From assembly GCA_025774865.1 (NCBI GenBank), contig JALGZO010000505.1, forward strand, positions 1 through 6,949: a DNA stretch of 6,949 bases, given 5' to 3'. This stretch comes from a bacterium (GTDB lineage: Bacteria > ARS69). This document shows positions 164 to 6,949 of this stretch, in pieces (position 1 is the first letter of the stretch; every line of letters begins with the position of its first letter). A program made the translations under genes and the position numbers. The notes beneath the pieces are model-generated. The model did no database searches and was not told the DNA's origin. It saw only the letters and a list, made by a program, of their open reading frames with translations.

Positions 164-577
164 GTGACTACGAACGTTCAGACGAAGGAGAATGCGGTGG
201 GAACCGATCTGGGATTCGACGGGGGACTGACCTGCGCCTACGGCGTGAGCGATCTCGAGCGCTCGATCGCGTGGTACTGCGACGTACTCGGCTTCGAGGT
301 GACGTACAAGCTCGACGACATGGCCTGGTGCGAGCTCAAATCCCCGGTCGATCGCGTTCAGGTGGGGTTGTCGCAGGTGGAGGAGCTGAAGGTCGAAGGC
401 GGCTGCACGATGACCTACGGCGTCAAGGACATCGACAGGGCCCGGGCCGCGCTCGAGAAGCAGAGTGTTCGCTTCGACGGCGACACCGTGACGATCCCGG
501 AGATGGTGAAGCTCGCGACGTTCTACGATCCGGACGGCAACAAGCTCATGCTCTACCAGGACCTTCAGAAAGCCTAG
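164..577 (+). CDS. VOC-superfamily (glyoxalase/bleomycin-resistance fold) protein without histidines
   Basis: A 137-aa protein with GTG start, supported by AGGAGG at 152-157, 6 nt upstream. The VOC beta-alpha-beta-beta-beta signature is seen twice. The first half has YGVSDLERSIAWYCDVLGFEV (about residues 26-46). The second half has YGVKDIDRARAALEK and ends in FYDPDGNKLMLYQ. Length fits a single two-module VOC unit. Glyoxalase I enzymes hold a divalent metal with His/Glu residues; here the position of the first-strand His is a Thr, the C-terminal Glu position is occupied by LMLYQ, and the whole protein has no histidine. A metal-dependent glyoxalase reaction is therefore unlikely; a ligand-binding, sequestering or metal-free role is more likely, but the substrate is unknown. 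The divergent HxlR-like regulator suggests control by a small reactive or toxic molecule (inference). Confidence 0.9.
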   Translation: MTTNVQTKENAVGTDLGFDGGLTCAYGVSDLERSIAWYCDVLGFEVTYKLDDMAWCELKSPVDRVQVGLSQVEELKVEGGCTMTYGVKDIDRARAALEKQSVRFDGDTVTIPEMVKLATFYDPDGNKLMLYQDLQKA

Positions 578-819: not shown

Positions 820-1593
820 ATGTCCAAGTGCAGGTGGTTGGCAATTCCGAGTGTTCTGGCCCTGAGCATCGCCTCCGGCTGCGGCGGTGGAGGTGACGAG
901 TCCGAGAGTCACACCGCTCCTGCCGCAAGTGATGCCGGCTCCGGCGCCGGCTTCGGCACCGCCAGCATCACCGGCAAGGTCACGTTCGATGGAGCCGCCC
1001 CCGAGGCCAAGTCGATCAGAATGAACGCCGACCCCGTCTGCTCCCTCAAGCACCCGGACGGCCGGGAGGACTACGATTACGTCGTGGGCGCCGACGGCGG
1101 CCTCAAGTGGACCTTCGTGTACGTCAAGGAAGGGGTGGCCGGAAGCTACGAACCGAGCGGCGAGGTCGTTCTGGACCAGAAGGGTTGCACCTTTGAGCCG
1201 CACGTCTTCGGCATCATGGCCGGACAGGATCTCAAGATCCTCAACAGCGACGAGACGCTTCACAACGTCCATGCGCTCTCGAACGAGTCGCGCCAGTTCA
1301 ACCTCGCGATGCCCCGGATGGGGATGGAACTCAAGCAGAAGTTCCGCAACCCCGAGGTCATGGTGCGGATCAAGTGCGACGTGCATCCCTGGATGGAGTG
1401 CTGGGCCGGCGTGCTCTCACACCCCTTCCACAGCGTCACCAGCGAAGACGGCAGCTTCAAGATCGACCGCCTCCCGGCCGGCACCTACACGATCGAGGCC
1501 TGGCACGAGAACGGTGGGACCCAAACTCAGACCGTCACCGTGGGTGACGGAGAGTCCCAAGAGATCACGTTCTCCTTCAAGTCATCGGTGTAA
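820..1593 (+). CDS. Lipoprotein with cupredoxin-like copper-site motif and carboxypeptidase-regulatory-like domain
   Basis: A 257-aa protein. The ATG at 820 is chosen because GAGGAG lies at 805-810 and because it opens a lipoprotein signal: a K/R-containing N-terminus, a hydrophobic core, then IASGC with Cys21 as the likely lipidated residue, followed by GGGGDE. The frame is open further upstream, but that part overlaps the VOC gene and is not protein-like. After a low-complexity linker (residues 22-45), a beta-rich domain (about 46-200) carries C74 and C123, HNVH (148-151), then C186-D-V-H189-P-W-M192 and H201. The spaced His/Cys/His/Met set resembles type-1 copper ligands of cupredoxins, although the C-x2-H-x2-M spacing is shorter than in plastocyanin or azurin. 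The C-terminus, with EDGSFKIDRLPAGTYTIEAWHE, is a carboxypeptidase-regulatory-like beta-sandwich. Such proteins are commonly annotated near respiratory cytochromes in environmental phyla. A periplasmic electron carrier or copper-binding role is inferred. The gene converges on the cytochrome operon. Confidence 0.9.
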   Translation: MSKCRWLAIPSVLALSIASGCGGGGDESESHTAPAASDAGSGAGFGTASITGKVTFDGAAPEAKSIRMNADPVCSLKHPDGREDYDYVVGADGGLKWTFVYVKEGVAGSYEPSGEVVLDQKGCTFEPHVFGIMAGQDLKILNSDETLHNVHALSNESRQFNLAMPRMGMELKQKFRNPEVMVRIKCDVHPWMECWAGVLSHPFHSVTSEDGSFKIDRLPAGTYTIEAWHENGGTQTQTVTVGDGESQEITFSFKSSV

Positions 1594-1714: not shown

Positions 1715-1735
1715 CCGCTACGGCTGCCGTAGCGG
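1715..1735 (-). terminator. Perfect 9-bp hairpin containing the stop codon of the last cytochrome gene
   Basis: CCGCTACGG (1715-1723) and CCGTAGCGG (1727-1735) are exact reverse complements around a 3-nt loop. Reading on the minus strand, the hairpin encodes the last residues and the TAG stop of the diheme cytochrome gene, and is followed by TTTCGC, a weak U-tract. It lies in the junction between convergent genes. It probably terminates the cytochrome operon or protects its 3' end; a clear T-run is lacking on either strand. Confidence 0.5.
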
Positions 1736-3241
1736 AGGCTCGGGCCCCGGCTCGGCGCGCCGGAGCCGACGCAACAGAAGCGCTTCCGCGCCCAGCCCGA
1801 GGAAGATGGCGACCAGCGGCCATGCGAACACGGTGCGCGGCGTCTCGGGCTCGAGCAGCAAGTAGTACCAGGCAGTGACGGCCTTGCGGTTGCCTTGTTC
1901 CTCGTTGGCGCCATCCCACACGTTGAACGCGATTGGCAGGAATGCTCCCGGCTCGAATTGCACGTCCTGCTCGTGATCCGTCGTCATCGCGCGACGGAAG
2001 ATCACCTGGTAGCGACCGTCGTCGTAGGCGCCCTGCGCGTTGACGCCCGACTCCTTCCGCTCGACCTCATTGGCTCCGTGAGCAAGCAGGTTGTCGGCCG
2101 TGTTCATGAGGGCGCTCCACCGCCAGTAGTCCACGGGGTGACGATCATCGCCCATGAGAAAGTAGGGCTTCTCGCCGCCCTCGGCCGGTCGTGCCGGAAA
2201 CTGGATCGCGGCTGCGTCCGAGGGCAGTCCGTCGCCGCCGGCGTTCTCCGTGCGGTCGTCCCAGATGAGCTGGACCGCGACCTCCTCGCCGTCGTAGAGC
2301 GCCTTCGCCGACACGTCCAGATTGACGAGCGTGAAGAGCCGTGGCTTCTGGATGATCTGCGGGGACAGCTTGAAATCGACCATGGGAGCCTCCGCCCACT
2401 CCGGCGCGGCCGGATCGGCGGGAATCGCGTCGACTCGGACGCCACGGACGACGATGTCGCGAACGGGCTCTCGGCCGACGCTGATCACATAGTTCGTGAG
2501 GTGCCACGCGTCCTCAGACGAGACCGACGGCGCGTACGACGGCATCGGCGTGCCGTTCAGCCCCGTCACGAACGTCCGGTACACGTCGCCCGGGGCACGG
2601 CCGCCCCGGAACGTCCAGGGCTGCATCATGTCGACGGGCCAGGTCCGCTCGTTCCATTCATCCTTGAGCTCGGCGGCGGACGGGCCGTTCCCACGTCCCT
2701 GCTCACCGTGGCACTTCGCGCACTGCATTTCCCCGTACACCTGGCGACCGCGCTCGACGCTCTCCTCGCTCGTGGGGATCGGCTCTCCGATCACCAGCTG
2801 TTCCTCGGGAGGGAAATGTTCGAAGTCCTCCGAGAACGTCTTGATGTAATGAACGACCTGCCAGATCTGATCCTCGGAGAGAAGCCCCTCCCACGCGGGC
2901 ATCGACGTTCCCGGCAGACCGAGCCGGACGGCTTCGTAAAGGTCATGATCGGTCGGGAGCTCACCTCCGAACGTGTGGCGAATCTTGTACGAGCCGGCGA
3001 TGAAGTCGCGGGGTTTGGGATAGACACGGTCGGCCATCGTGCCCTTGCCGTCTCCCGTGTCGCCGTGGCACTGCGCGCACGACTCCTGGTACACGCTCTT
3101 GCCGGCCTCGATCTGCTCGGGCGTCGCCGTCACGAACTCGACACCGCCGAGCTCATAGCCGAGCTCGTTGACCTCGGCCGCCGCCGACACCGCCAGAAGC
3201 GAGAAGGGTCCGGCGACGAGCGCGAACCGGAGCGAGGACAT
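1718..3241 (-). CDS. Secreted diheme cytochrome c fused to an ethylbenzene-dehydrogenase-gamma-like heme b domain
   Basis: A 507-aa protein. The ATG at 3241 is preferred over an upstream TTG at 3274: it has a strong SD (GGAGGGGGG, 5 nt upstream), it begins a Sec signal peptide (SSLRFALVAGPFSLLAVSAAA, cleavage near residue 22) and it overlaps the stop of the previous gene as TGATG. Two class-I cytochrome c modules follow: CAQCH at 55-59 with M114 (GTSMPAW), and CAKCH at 174-178 with M233 (GTPMPSY). Residues about 268-465 resemble the ethylbenzene-dehydrogenase gamma / DOMON-type heme b domain: AIQFPA, PYFLMGDDRHPVDYWRW and FNVWDGANEEQGNRKAVTAWYYL. In that family heme b is held by Met and Lys; M363 and K453 are the candidates here. 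A C-terminal membrane helix (about 470-489) followed by RRLRR anchors it, leaving the heme domains in the periplasm. No molybdenum-enzyme partner is visible. It is the last gene of the operon and likely an electron entry or relay component. Confidence 0.93.
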   Translation of the reverse strand: MSSLRFALVAGPFSLLAVSAAAEVNELGYELGGVEFVTATPEQIEAGKSVYQESCAQCHGDTGDGKGTMADRVYPKPRDFIAGSYKIRHTFGGELPTDHDLYEAVRLGLPGTSMPAWEGLLSEDQIWQVVHYIKTFSEDFEHFPPEEQLVIGEPIPTSEESVERGRQVYGEMQCAKCHGEQGRGNGPSAAELKDEWNERTWPVDMMQPWTFRGGRAPGDVYRTFVTGLNGTPMPSYAPSVSSEDAWHLTNYVISVGREPVRDIVVRGVRVDAIPADPAAPEWAEAPMVDFKLSPQIIQKPRLFTLVNLDVSAKALYDGEEVAVQLIWDDRTENAGGDGLPSDAAAIQFPARPAEGGEKPYFLMGDDRHPVDYWRWSALMNTADNLLAHGANEVERKESGVNAQGAYDDGRYQVIFRRAMTTDHEQDVQFEPGAFLPIAFNVWDGANEEQGNRKAVTAWYYLLLEPETPRTVFAWPLVAIFLGLGAEALLLRRLRRAEPGPEPPLRQP

Positions 3242-4005
3242 CAGTGCCCCCCTCCGCCGCCGTGCTCCCCCCAAGTGCGCGGCTCCGATCCCGACGCCTC
3301 GTAGATGTAGAGGATGACCTGCCAGATCTCTTCCTCGGTCAGGAAGTCCTGCCAGGCGGGCATCGCCGAGTTCCAGGGGGTGGCGCCCCTCGGCAGGCCC
3401 CGTCCGCCCGTCGCCACGCGCCAGAACACGTACGACTCTTCGAGCTGCGAGAGCGTCCCGCTATCGCGGAAGTTCGTGGGCAGCGGATTGAAAGCCTCCG
3501 CGAAGTGGCCCTTCCCCGTCAGGTGATCGCCGTGGCAGAACATGCAGTTCTCGAAGTAGACCCGCTTCCCGGCCTCGAGGTTGTCTGCGAAGTGCGCCTC
3601 CGCTTCGTGCTCCCTCAGGGGGTTCTGGGTCTTCAACACGTCGAAGTCCCGTCCCTGGAACTTGAACGTGCTCGGCGGCTCGGGATGGATCGTCCGGCCT
3701 TCGAACGGAGGTTCGAGCGTCGGGCGCACCTTCTCGAACGTGGCCCAGCCCACGAGCAGCGGCACGCAGGCGAGCACGATCAGTCTCGGCACCGCGAGTC
3801 GATCCTCGGTGAGGAGGGCCAGGATCGGCGCCTGCACGGCTCGGAAGCGACTTTCGTCGGCCATGAGGTAGACGAGAATCGACACACCCGCGATCGCCAT
3901 GTAGAGCGTCATCACGGAACCGGGGATCGGCGGCTGCACCAGTCGGAGCAGACCCCAGACGATCCCCCACCCGAGCAAGGCCAGCGGAAGTGTCAGCTTC
4001 TGCAT
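3241..4005 (-). CDS. Membrane-anchored monoheme cytochrome c
   Basis: A 254-aa protein with ATG start 6 bp after the stop of the diheme cytochrome gene; a GAGAGG in the end of that gene can act as SD. Three hydrophobic segments (about residues 5-23, 29-48 and 73-90) precede a periplasmic cytochrome c domain with C154-M-F-C157-H158 and a likely distal ligand M215 in NSAMPAW. The final helix pattern (LTEEEIWQVILYIYEA) is typical of class-I cytochromes c. The protein ends in an unusual HGGGGGH tail, whose codons also form the SD for the next gene. It probably passes electrons between the periplasmic diheme proteins and the CydA-like membrane subunit; this is inferred from context. The three-helix N-terminus is not one of the common respiratory cytochrome folds that I recognise. 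Confidence 0.92.
   Translation of the reverse strand: MQKLTLPLALLGWGIVWGLLRLVQPPIPGSVMTLYMAIAGVSILVYLMADESRFRAVQAPILALLTEDRLAVPRLIVLACVPLLVGWATFEKVRPTLEPPFEGRTIHPEPPSTFKFQGRDFDVLKTQNPLREHEAEAHFADNLEAGKRVYFENCMFCHGDHLTGKGHFAEAFNPLPTNFRDSGTLSQLEESYVFWRVATGGRGLPRGATPWNSAMPAWQDFLTEEEIWQVILYIYEASGSEPRTWGEHGGGGGH
3247..3255 (-). promoter_or_regulatory. Strong ribosome binding site inside the preceding coding sequence
   Basis: GGAGGGGGG on the minus strand lies 5 nt before the ATG at 3241, which decides that start over the TTG at 3274. The same bases encode the last glycines of the upstream cytochrome, so translation of the two genes is likely coupled through the TGATG overlap. Confidence 0.7.
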
Positions 4006-4011
4006 GACTCG

Positions 4012-4911
4012 TCAGCGCCTCTCGATCCACTCGATGGCCCACCACGCGCCTGCGTTGAAGACGAAGATGATCGAGATCAACTGGAGCATCGGGTGACCGG
4101 ATGCGCGTCGGATTCGTTCCCAGAACGTTCGCCCCGCCCCCGTCCCGCCGAGCCGCACGACGTATCGAACGAGCTGATCGACTTCCTGGGGCTTGAGATC
4201 CTCGGCGAACGTCGTGGGCATGAGACCGGCGGCGTAGCCTTCTGAAATGACCGCGTTGGGGTCGAGAATCGACTGGCGGATCTCCTCCTCGGAAAGCCGC
4301 TGGGCGACCTGCGTCAGCGGAGGTCCGACCTGGCGTGCGTCGCCGTGAACGTCGTGACAGGTGACGCACCCGTGCAGGTTCAGGTACGCGACTTCCGGCG
4401 ATGTTCCCCCCACCGCGGTCGCTGCCTTCGCGGCCGCGAGCTCCACATCCTCTTGGGTCACCTCGACCGTGACCTCGCCGCCCAACGACTGCAAGAACGC
4501 GATGACCGCCTTCAACTCCGTGGCACTCATGTCCGCCGGCGGCAGATTGGCCGCGGGCATGATCGGCGGATACTCGTTGACCACGAACGCGGCCGGCTGC
4601 AGGAGTGCCTCGGTGAGGTACGCCTCCGCGGTCACGTCGGGAATCCGCGTGGCCGCGCGCCCACCCACGCCCCGCAGGTCCGGCCCACGTTCGTTGCCCG
4701 TCTCCGTGATCTTGTGACAGATGAGGCACCCGCCCTTGTTCTTCACGAGCTCCTCCCCCATCGAGACGAGCTCGGCCGGCTCGTTCTCGGGAGTGATCTC
4801 GAGCTCCGCCGGCGGATGCTGCTCCGACTGCGTCACCGTCTGCCCTATGTACATGTAGAACAAATCGATCGCGAGCACGAAGAGCAGGATCCGAAGGAAG
4901 ACCTTCTTCAT
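4012..4911 (-). CDS. Membrane-anchored diheme cytochrome c
   Basis: A 299-aa protein. Its ATG at 4911 overlaps the TGA of the cydA-like gene (TGATG), with GGAGAAGGCGG upstream as SD. An N-terminal helix (about residues 5-24) leads into the periplasm. The first heme site is C62-L-I-C65-H66 with M118 (YPPIMPA) as a likely distal ligand. A linker rich in E, A and V (about 145-170) follows, then C182-V-T-C185-H186 with M231 (AGLMPTTF). A second hydrophobic segment (about 275-295) near the C-terminus gives a second anchor. Both modules look like class-I cytochrome c domains, and their tandem arrangement resembles CcoP/FixP in general design but without the CcoP sequence features. Being directly coupled to the CydA-like gene, it is the best candidate for the immediate electron donor to that subunit (inference). 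Confidence 0.93.
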   Translation of the reverse strand: MKKVFLRILLFVLAIDLFYMYIGQTVTQSEQHPPAELEITPENEPAELVSMGEELVKNKGGCLICHKITETGNERGPDLRGVGGRAATRIPDVTAEAYLTEALLQPAAFVVNEYPPIMPAANLPPADMSATELKAVIAFLQSLGGEVTVEVTQEDVELAAAKAATAVGGTSPEVAYLNLHGCVTCHDVHGDARQVGPPLTQVAQRLSEEEIRQSILDPNAVISEGYAAGLMPTTFAEDLKPQEVDQLVRYVVRLGGTGAGRTFWERIRRASGHPMLQLISIIFVFNAGAWWAIEWIERR

Positions 4912-6659
4912 CAGACCGCCTTCTCCTTGCGCTCGGAGCGCAGTGCGAGGCCGAAGACGGCGGCGATCATCAGGAAGAACGCGAGGACGATGAGGGATAC
5001 GGTCATCGTCGCGCTCCCGTGGGTCGGGATGAACGCCTCGGGGCTCTGGTCCCGCATCACACCGTAGACGTGCCAGTACTGCCGGATGCCCGACCGGATG
5101 TAACCCATCAATCCCATCAACCACGTGAAGGTGACCGCGAGGAAGAAGAGAACGTACTGGGACCGCGGCGGCATCTTCCCCCACTGGATCTCGCCGAGGG
5201 ACCTCGCACCCTTGTAGATCGGAACCTCGAGCACGAGGAAGATCACGATGAAGGAGAGTACGGCGAGCACTTGATACACGGAGAATTCGATCCGGATCGC
5301 CGCGGGCACGAAATACCCGTAGACTCCGTAACCGATCACGATGCCGGACGTTCCGAGAAGAAGCAGCGCCTGGACTGCCTTTCCGATCTTCGCCCATGGC
5401 ACGACCGCTTCCTTGTTGCCGCGCCGGTAGAGCATGAAGTTCAGAAACGTGAACAGGATCATCATGTTCACGGCCGTGTTCTTCGCGGACATGACGCCGA
5501 GCACGCCTAGCCGGGGGTGGTGGGCGCCTCCCATCTCGCGCATCTCCGACACCGTCGCCAGGATGCTGTGGGGCGTGGCCCAGATCGCGAATCCCGTGGC
5601 GATCACCGTGAGTACGATCGCCTGGGAGAACCGGTAGCGCTCCGCGCCCGGGATGCGTCCCATGGCCAGCCAGAGATACAGATTGAATCCCAGGAAGAGC
5701 GACCCGATGAGGATCGCCTGAATGATCCAGAGCTGCGCGAACGACCCGCCCATCATCGAGACACCCATCTGCTGGCTGTACGCGTAGATCTCGGTGCCGA
5801 AGTAGTAGCCGGCGAACGGCAGCGGAATGAACGCGGCGACGGCGATGAAGCTTCCGATGTACCCCATCCAGTCGAACTGCGCGCGCTCCTCGTCCGTTTC
5901 CGCGCATAGAAACCGGAACGCCGCGTAGGCGCCCACGACGGCCCCGCCAAAACAGATGTTCGCGATGAAGCGGTGAATGAAGAGTGGAATCACCGCGAAG
6001 CTCGTCCACGCGTTCCAGCGGTCGAGCACGGTGATCCCGAGATCACGCCCCTCGACCCCGCCCGGCGTCATCGTGTAGCCGACCCAGGAGCTCGTCACGA
6101 ACAGGATCACGATCCCCACAACGTTGACCATGAAGCCGATGAAGAGGTGCCACCCCTTCCTCTCGCGGAGAGCCTCCCAGCTGTACCAGTACAGGTAGGC
6201 GAAGAACACCTCCAACAGGATCATCGCCACGTAGAAGAACCAGGTGGGCTCGAACACCGTCATCAGGTGCGCGACGAGTCGCGGGTAGAGCGCGAAGAGC
6301 GCGACGAGGAGAACGCCGCCCAGAACCGCCGTGAGCGTGTAGCTCACCGCCAGCAGCCGCGTGAACTCCTTCGCCAGGTCATCGAAGCGCCGGCTCTTCT
6401 TCACGACGCCGATGGTCTCCGTGATGATGACGAAGATCGGGACGCCGAGGACGAAGGCGGCGAACATGAGATGCCACTGGGCGATCACCCACACGAACAC
6501 CCGGCTCCCGATGACCGGGAAAGCCCGGTAGTCGGCCGGACCCAGCAGGTGATTGAAACCCTGGATCAGGAAGTACGTGGCCACCAGAATCACCGAGACC
6601 TTGGCCAGGCCCTTCCGGACGCCGCTGAGGGCCGCTATCGTACCTTCGAGCGTCGCCAC
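4911..6659 (-). CDS. CydA-like membrane subunit of the cytochrome bd superfamily, non-canonical
   Basis: A 582-aa protein with GTG start, supported by AGGGGG at 6665-6670, 5 nt upstream. About 13-14 membrane helices are visible, more than the nine of CydA: one extra N-terminal helix (about 20-38) and extra C-terminal ones (about 460-480, 500-520, 550-573). Aligned by eye with E. coli CydA, QWHLMFAAFVLGVPIFVIITE gives H63 for H19, LLEVFFAYLYWYSW gives E150 for E107, LFIHRF gives H229 for H186, and NTAVNMMILF gives M399 or M400 for M393. So the heme-binding core looks kept. E99 aligns with F142, and K183 with L226. The GRQPW signature and Q-loop linked to quinol oxidation are not found. A C-terminal GYIRSGIRQYWHVYGVMRD (R522, R526, H530, R536) is conserved-looking. 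No cydB is present downstream; cytochromes c follow instead. It is therefore likely the catalytic subunit of a bd-superfamily enzyme taking electrons from cytochrome c. Substrate is unproven. Confidence 0.9.
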   Translation of the reverse strand: MATLEGTIAALSGVRKGLAKVSVILVATYFLIQGFNHLLGPADYRAFPVIGSRVFVWVIAQWHLMFAAFVLGVPIFVIITETIGVVKKSRRFDDLAKEFTRLLAVSYTLTAVLGGVLLVALFALYPRLVAHLMTVFEPTWFFYVAMILLEVFFAYLYWYSWEALRERKGWHLFIGFMVNVVGIVILFVTSSWVGYTMTPGGVEGRDLGITVLDRWNAWTSFAVIPLFIHRFIANICFGGAVVGAYAAFRFLCAETDEERAQFDWMGYIGSFIAVAAFIPLPFAGYYFGTEIYAYSQQMGVSMMGGSFAQLWIIQAILIGSLFLGFNLYLWLAMGRIPGAERYRFSQAIVLTVIATGFAIWATPHSILATVSEMREMGGAHHPRLGVLGVMSAKNTAVNMMILFTFLNFMLYRRGNKEAVVPWAKIGKAVQALLLLGTSGIVIGYGVYGYFVPAAIRIEFSVYQVLAVLSFIVIFLVLEVPIYKGARSLGEIQWGKMPPRSQYVLFFLAVTFTWLMGLMGYIRSGIRQYWHVYGVMRDQSPEAFIPTHGSATMTVSLIVLAFFLMIAAVFGLALRSERKEKAV

Positions 6660-6670: not shown

Positions 6671-6949
6671 ATTGCGCGGACTCGGCGGCGCCTTCGGCTC
6701 CGTGATCTTGTTCAGGCGCGCCGCCGGGCTGCTCGGCAACGACCGCGGCGACCGGCGGGCGGGACGCGCGCCCGGGCGGGAACCCGCCGGAGGACGCCGC
6801 GTACCCGAAGATCACTCGCGTACCGTGACGCGTCGCGTCGGAGGCCGTAGGCAAATCCGAGGATCAATCCGAACACGACGTGCCCGATGAAACTCGGGAA
6901 CATCTCGAGCGCGTTGTCCAACGACCAGCGACTTCCCACCGCGTCGCCC
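6669..6949 (-). CDS. Small membrane protein, C-terminal part, with apparent frameshift (cut by right edge)
   Basis: From the right edge, one minus-strand frame reads through a helix, MFPSFIGHVVFGLILGFAYG (about 6902-6843), that looks like the last helix of small membrane proteins with an H-x-VFG-x-x-LG-x-x-YG ending (DUF6789-like; tentative). That frame continues to a TGA at 6712 as an Arg-rich, unconvincing tail. The +1 frame, open from just after a TGA at 6864-6866, instead gives a Pro/Ala/Glu-rich tail ending in AEGAAESAQ with a TAG at 6669-6671, touching the SD of the cydA-like gene. Over about 43 codons the +1 frame has roughly 91% G/C third positions against 72% for the first frame, whereas the helix is coded in the first frame. 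A frameshift (real or sequence error) near 6825-6860 is likely. If so the gene would sit only 9 nt before the cydA-like start, within the same operon. Confidence 0.5.

Follow-up and report, generated by a model that had tools for sequence, protein, structure and literature searches.

What does a CydA-like subunit do when it is encoded together with three cytochromes and without CydB? The question is raised by a four-gene operon on contig JALGZO010000505.1 of assembly GCA_025774865.1, from a bacterium of the ARS69 lineage. The window analyzed here is the entire contig (C509, 6949 bp); sequence upstream of its end is not readable. The operon comprises the following genes:

4911..6659, minus strand: A, CydA-like "bd-like" membrane subunit (GTG start, 582 aa; PF01654)
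4012..4911, minus strand: B, membrane-anchored diheme cytochrome c, Kustd1711-like (299 aa; CxxCH at residues 62 and 182)
3241..4005, minus strand: C, monoheme cytochrome c (254 aa; CxxCH at residue 154; PF13442)
1718..3241, minus strand: D, alternative NxrC-type protein (507 aa from the ATG at 3241; two CxxCH and EB_dh)

The A/B and C/D junctions are both TGATG with a one-base overlap, 6 bp separate B from C, and B, C, and D together harbor five CxxCH motifs. Upon re-reading of the sequence, the coordinates, reading frames, junctions, and motif count given by the first-pass annotation were all reproduced.

The favored answer, to which a rough probability of 0.45 is assigned, is a single bd-like membrane complex with periplasmic donors and a D–C–B–A electron path, probably acting as an auxiliary O2 reductase. 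The four proteins would constitute one membrane complex of the bd-like branch (non-quinol, OR-N type), which high-potential electrons from a periplasmic cytochrome c or a neighboring cupredoxin would enter via the diheme/heme b protein D. The electrons would then travel via C and B, both membrane-anchored cytochromes, to A, arriving at the heme pair in its N-terminal helix bundle. O2 would most likely be reduced to water at A, such that the complex would serve as an auxiliary terminal oxidase beside a caa3 oxidase. We infer one physical complex, this direction of electron flow, and O2 as the acceptor.

Subunit A matches PF01654 with 57.8 bits (9.8e-16; cut-off 26.2), and its sequence matches solved CydA proteins weakly (9r2g_A, E 5.5e-11; 5doq_A, 5.7e-7). 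An AF2 model, built as a single chain from a 34-row alignment, has a pLDDT of 82 and a pTM of 0.84 and contains 14 helices of at least 20 residues. Compared with ten CydA chains, it gives Z scores of 28.3–31.2, corresponding to a CydA fold, and this predicted fold places A in the cytochrome bd superfamily. The model also resembles ActC and ActF of alternative complex III (ACIII), with Z scores of 18.5–22.2 that are well above those of the next folds listed.

Residues were compared across 43 family sequences and six classical CydA proteins and numbered via the solved E. coli CydA. His19, His186, Arg448, and Trp451 are retained in all 43 family sequences, while Glu107 is a glutamate in 42 and an aspartate in one. 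The b558 ligand position Met393 is occupied by valine or isoleucine in the family, in a region that is weakly aligned and gapped in two divergent rows. The quinol-loop residues Lys252 and Glu257, present in 6/6 classical proteins, are kept in 0/43 family sequences and correspond to Ser365 and Val370 in A. In the CydA superfamily tree, named by the first-pass annotation as a possible refutation, A is not among the quinol oxidases: a 100/100 branch separates the six classical sequences from the entire 43-member family, A included. A groups (100/100) with one gammaproteobacterial, two myxococcal, and one planctomycete-labelled metagenome-assembled genome (MAG), and the neighbors of this group are Rhodocyclales and another betaproteobacterium. 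Sequences from Scalindua, Nitrospirota, and Nitrospinaceae fall inside the same 43-member group. On the basis of these alignments and the tree, A is a member of the bd-like (OR-N) family, i.e., a CydA homologue without a quinol site that groups with nitrifier and anammox sequences. The earlier suggestion that the operon belongs to a bd-superfamily branch outside the quinol oxidases is borne out, with residues, tree, and fold in agreement.

Positions of A that are invariant across the family are His63, Tyr143, His229, His381, Arg526, Trp529, and His530, with Glu150 near-invariant; in the 34-row family alignment, newly invariant residues include His381, Met390, Lys393, Met518, Arg522, and His530. 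The family-wide residue table sets which invariant positions any mechanism must explain. A heme-copper-like catalytic site, proposed for one Nitrospira bd-like protein (PMC8026999), was considered and rejected. When this set (a CuB histidine pair and a heme HxH) is mapped to A, His380–His381 is present, and the first histidine of HxH is replaced by Tyr528. Positions 381 and 530 never vary in the family; positions 380 and 528 vary freely, and therefore the set is not a family-wide active site.

The conclusion that A works with B, C, and D draws on gene order. Related loci were collected from one scan of species genomes (27 loci), with more from genome searches. The A–B–C–D order is retained in every one of them that lies on a sufficiently long, gap-free contig (in L041, B is recognized by position and two CxxCH only), and it is found in Proteobacteria, Myxococcota, Gemmatimonadota, Rokubacteria, Nitrospirota, and anammox bacteria. 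With this recurrence, a chance arrangement is ruled out. A and B form one open reading frame (ORF) in L027 (Rhodocyclales) and L043 (Scalindua rubra), as do C and D in L019, L036, and L048; L094 has a shorter A–B-type fusion, a one-heme variant. The conserved order and these natural fusions make it likely, at the level of sequence, that A, B, C, and D form one complex, as the first-pass annotation had read from their tight coupling. Its description of three dedicated cytochrome partners likewise holds, with B, C, and D recurring beside A in related loci. One locus, L049 (CP070799, Nitrospinaceae bin1391), at first appeared to lack B, C, and D; an N gap lies inside B, other genes follow, and the locus was excluded. 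The sequence after the gap encodes a molybdopterin domain and complex I, and a false join in this chromosome-level MAG is probable.

Several loci depart from the simple four-gene arrangement. In L023 (Gammaproteobacteria MT_MAG1, 489–12887), two full A–B–C–D modules stand in tandem, separated by a gene for a four-CxxCH protein with a FixO-like stretch; this genome encodes the alpha subunit of nitrite oxidoreductase (NXR-A) as well as approximately ten paralogues of the DMSO-reductase type II alpha subunit. In L021 (G043, 12920–16105), a 1061-aa protein with eight CxxCH motifs is encoded immediately upstream, and a second gene for a cupredoxin lies between it and the module. In the alphaproteobacterial L036 and L048, the module is followed by two diheme genes, both of which match cytochrome c peroxidase/MauG in L036. 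L022 and L085/L099 (G009 and G074) encode a very divergent CydA-like protein (687–725 aa) followed by a two-CxxCH protein, the former possibly being the second OR-N type of Nitrospinota-like genomes.

The cytochromes point to a donor of high potential. B, which has hydrophobic segments at both ends, aligns over residues 1–230 with Kustd1711 (PDB 7ZS0, chain 7zs0_A; E 2.5e-24); the aligned stretch covers both CxxCH motifs and the hydrophobic segment at the N-terminus. In contrast to Kustd1711, B has a C-terminal hydrophobic segment. Kustd1711 of Kuenenia is a diheme cytochrome encoded in an nxr cluster, which has been solved and electrochemically characterized, with heme potentials of approximately +350 mV (PMC11791136). 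The homology of B to this protein thus fits a donor at the level of cytochrome c or cupredoxin rather than quinol. C matches PF13442 (4.5e-10) and has three N-terminal hydrophobic segments.

D is laid out as a signal peptide, two c hemes, an EB_dh heme b domain, and a C-terminal anchor. It matches PF13442/PF00034 in two stretches and PF09459 with 74.8 bits (1.4e-20); its match to TIGR03477, at 126.5 bits, is under the cut-off of 169.9. The diheme half matches 6h5l_B (E 1.4e-60), which we take to be Kuenenia Kustc0457, the partner of an HAO-like reductase. The heme b half matches NXR-C (7b04_C) and EbdC, the gamma subunit of ethylbenzene dehydrogenase (2ivf_C). Met363 and Lys453 of D are in register with a methionine and a lysine common to NxrC and EbdC, presumably the heme b ligands of type II DMSO reductase gamma subunits, and the alignment suggests that the D of the window probably carries heme b. 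Unlike in NXR-C and EbdC, this domain of D shares its chain with a diheme domain and a membrane anchor. Because Met363 and Lys453 are not conserved among the relatives of D, heme b may be absent or bound otherwise in these.

A plausible electron donor is encoded directly beside the operon, by a gene that the first-pass annotation had overlooked:

820..1593, plus strand: cupredoxin (type 1 copper) lipoprotein, probable fifth member, convergent with D (ligand residues, model)

Residues H148, C186, H189, and M192 do not vary among 15 homologues encoded next to loci of this kind, and residues 115–199 of the model superimpose on plastocyanin with a Z score of 13.0 and a root-mean-square deviation of 1.4 Å over 84 residues. 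By fold prediction and ligand set, the product is a periplasmic type 1 copper protein, with His, Cys, His, and Met ligands in a cupredoxin fold; it also has a C-terminal carboxypeptidase-regulatory-like domain (PF13620). The gene recurs in many related loci and is a probable fifth member of the module. It adjoins COX2-COX1(-COX3) of an aa3-type oxidase in Rokubacteria, Gemmatimonadota, two Myxococcales, one planctomycete-labelled MAG, and two further genomes; 8 of the 15 cupredoxin–COX loci are rokubacterial, such that these are not 15 independent cases.

The host genome (4.7 Mb, 785 contigs, 92.65% complete, 8.3% contamination) allows the missing partners to be sought beyond the window. CydB (PF02322) was not found in the whole genome at this completeness, with positive search controls, and A is its sole PF01654 protein. 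The absence of CydB noted earlier from the window alone therefore extends genome-wide, and a cydB gene just outside the window is ruled out as far as the search reaches. A second CydA-type subunit, as in the proposed and unproven CydAA' pair, was likewise not found in this 92.65% complete MAG. In carriers of the module that do have CydB, it is encoded on the contig of the classical CydA, apart from A–B–C–D.

Counts of NXR and complex III refer to a set of 20 carrier genomes, host included. NXR-A was not found in the host, an incomplete 785-contig bin, by TIGR03479 or by a search with NXR-A proteins (best match 36.7 bits over 109 residues), and a role as NXR partner in the host was rejected. 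The 14 of 19 other carriers that lack NXR bring the total to 15/20. Full-length NXR-A is present in G052, G009, and G060 (59–65% identity to that of Scalindua) and in Scalindua itself (G072), with a fragment in G071. With four full-length cases among the 20 carriers and none in the host, the module is not tied to nitrite oxidation. All 20 carriers encode at least one of two proteins, a bc-type cytochrome b and an NrfD-type protein, and the host encodes both; its caa3 genes share another contig with the NrfD-type (ACIII-like) gene. Replacement of complex III by the module was rejected, as every carrier already has one of these proteins.

The composition of the cluster is known from nitrifiers and anammox bacteria, and its function is unproven; the earlier remark that the exact composition looks poorly described does not stand. 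For Nitrospina, a bd-like oxidase with 14 helices and no quinol residues has been described, together with mono- and diheme cytochromes c, an alternative NxrC, and cupredoxin-like proteins (PMC3578206). In Nitrospira moscoviensis, bd-like_3 is accompanied by two membrane cytochromes c and alt_NxrC_2, with one helix and two hemes, and is highly transcribed (PMC6606698). The same cluster is found in Nitrospinae and in anammox bacteria (PMC8026999), near nxr genes in some cases (PMC3578206, PMC8026999). The module of the window shares with these the 14-helix bd-like protein without quinol residues, the diheme and further membrane cytochrome c, the membrane-anchored alternative NxrC with two c hemes, and the cupredoxin. 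In contrast to them, no NXR is found in the host or most carriers, and the module neighbors a cupredoxin gene as well as, in several phyla, COX genes of the aa3 type. A triheme cytochrome is counted in one description (PMC8026999), whereas C is monoheme.

Nitrospinota proteins of the bd-like type have been filed as OR-N (PMC10839748), whose members are named putative cytochrome c-oxidizing O2 reductases (PMC10839748, PMC10579370). Like A, OR-N proteins are CydA homologues without a quinol site and with a putative cytochrome c donor; they occur in nitrifiers. A pairing of two CydA-type subunits, CydAA', is proposed for them (PMC10839748, PMC12342949), whereas the host and several carriers have a single CydA homologue.

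With respect to the electron acceptor, O2 reduction is favored by G009, G070, and G071, which have neither a heme-copper oxidase nor CydB; among these O2 reductase families, the bd-like proteins are thus the sole candidates there. G074 has only a weak, sub-cut-off COX1 match, and a second bd-like gene is present in G009, G070, and G074. Several points weigh on the other side. Glu99 of E. coli CydA is replaced by tyrosine in 43/43 family sequences, and Glu445 is never a glutamate in the family (Leu, Val, Met, or Trp instead); with both lost, the two-heme O2 site cannot have its classical form, which counts against A as the catalytic oxidase. Most carriers, like the host, already possess a heme-copper oxidase; in several lineages its genes directly adjoin the module, and a second oxidase in that position would be superfluous. 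The five bd-like genes of the anammox bacterium Scalindua rubra fit poorly with a purely aerobic role, and the literature searched yielded no biochemical work on this cluster.

The alternative that survives best, while unlikely in our estimate, dispenses with O2 reduction altogether. Electrons would be exchanged between the periplasmic pool of high potential and a different acceptor in the membrane, e.g., quinone by reverse transport, and A would be an ACIII-like electron/proton device. Reverse electron transport to quinone is the role that has been proposed for the cluster in nitrite oxidizers and anammox bacteria (PMC3578206, PMC6606698). The lost active-site glutamates and the several bd-like copies in an anammox genome would be in keeping with it, as would the position of the module beside aa3 COX clusters, where complex III-type genes are often found. 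The likeness of the A model to ActC and ActF also favors this scheme, but may reflect merely shared four-helix bundles, and the module contains no ActB, ActA, or other Act partner, with B, C, and D belonging to other families. Moreover, A retains none of the quinol-loop residues known from CydA, the module is no complex III replacement, and carriers without NXR have no obvious need for reverse electron flow.

It is improbable that the module is a nitric oxide (NO) reductase, or a reductase or detoxifying enzyme for another small molecule, fed by periplasmic cytochromes. Such a function would accommodate the loss of the classical O2-site glutamates with retention of the His19 equivalent, the conservation of the cluster in NO-handling anammox bacteria and nitrifiers, and the fact that the diheme half of D is closest to 6h5l_B. 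However, no NO-related gene was recognized beside the module, where the identified linked genes are mostly COX and cupredoxin, and we know of no biochemical precedent for NO reductase activity in the bd-like family.

Still less probable is a module dedicated to NXR in nitrite oxidation. In its favor, D is of the alternative NxrC type, nitrifiers and anammox bacteria have conserved the cluster, with nxr nearby in some (PMC3578206, PMC8026999), and five carriers hold NXR-A in full length or as a fragment. With NXR-A absent from the host search and from 14/19 other carriers, MAG gaps notwithstanding, the module can hardly be a general NXR partner. Finally, the PF01654 match of A would suit a conventional cytochrome bd quinol oxidase whose cydB lies elsewhere, but this is scarcely credible given the absence of CydB from the genome search, the missing quinol residues, the tree position, and the placement of CydB in other carriers with classical CydA rather than with the module.

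In nitrifiers and anammox bacteria, the bd-like cluster has been described as enigmatic (PMC3578206), and so far its role has been interpreted through nitrite oxidation. Its intact presence in many genomes that lack NXR, next to a cupredoxin and aa3 oxidase genes, separates the two. To the known composition, the present analysis adds its independence of NXR, the recurrent cupredoxin, the linkage to aa3 oxidases, and a single CydA homologue in several genomes. We tentatively suggest that the module may represent a general, nitrite-independent complex in which a lone CydA-type protein, with neither CydB nor a second CydA, would be driven by blue copper or cytochrome c via three dedicated cytochromes and would work with aa3-type oxidases in several phyla. 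Carriers among the Beta- and Gammaproteobacteria and Myxococcota belong to groups with better laboratory genetics, where the reaction of the cluster could be tested.

The origin of the contig was also considered. The window has a GC content of 65.0% and a tetranucleotide correlation of 0.94 with host contig C139. A contaminant was rejected, there being no sign of one in this profile, with the caveat that some foreign contigs correlate nearly as highly (up to 0.92) and that the bin is 8.3% contaminated. A is not present in four genomes of the host's own family, and its gain by transfer is therefore possible.

The remaining features of the window lie at its two ends:

164-577, plus strand: Glyoxalase/VOC-family gene (family match)
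6712-6948, minus strand: open 78-aa hydrophobic ORF that runs off the contig (weak Tim17 match)

No RNA elements or tRNAs were found in the window. The 78-aa ORF shares the strand of A and terminates 52 bp ahead of it, and the operon start may lie past the contig end. An AT-rich stretch precedes the gene at 164-577, with two overlapping sigma-70-like promoter matches at 81–115.

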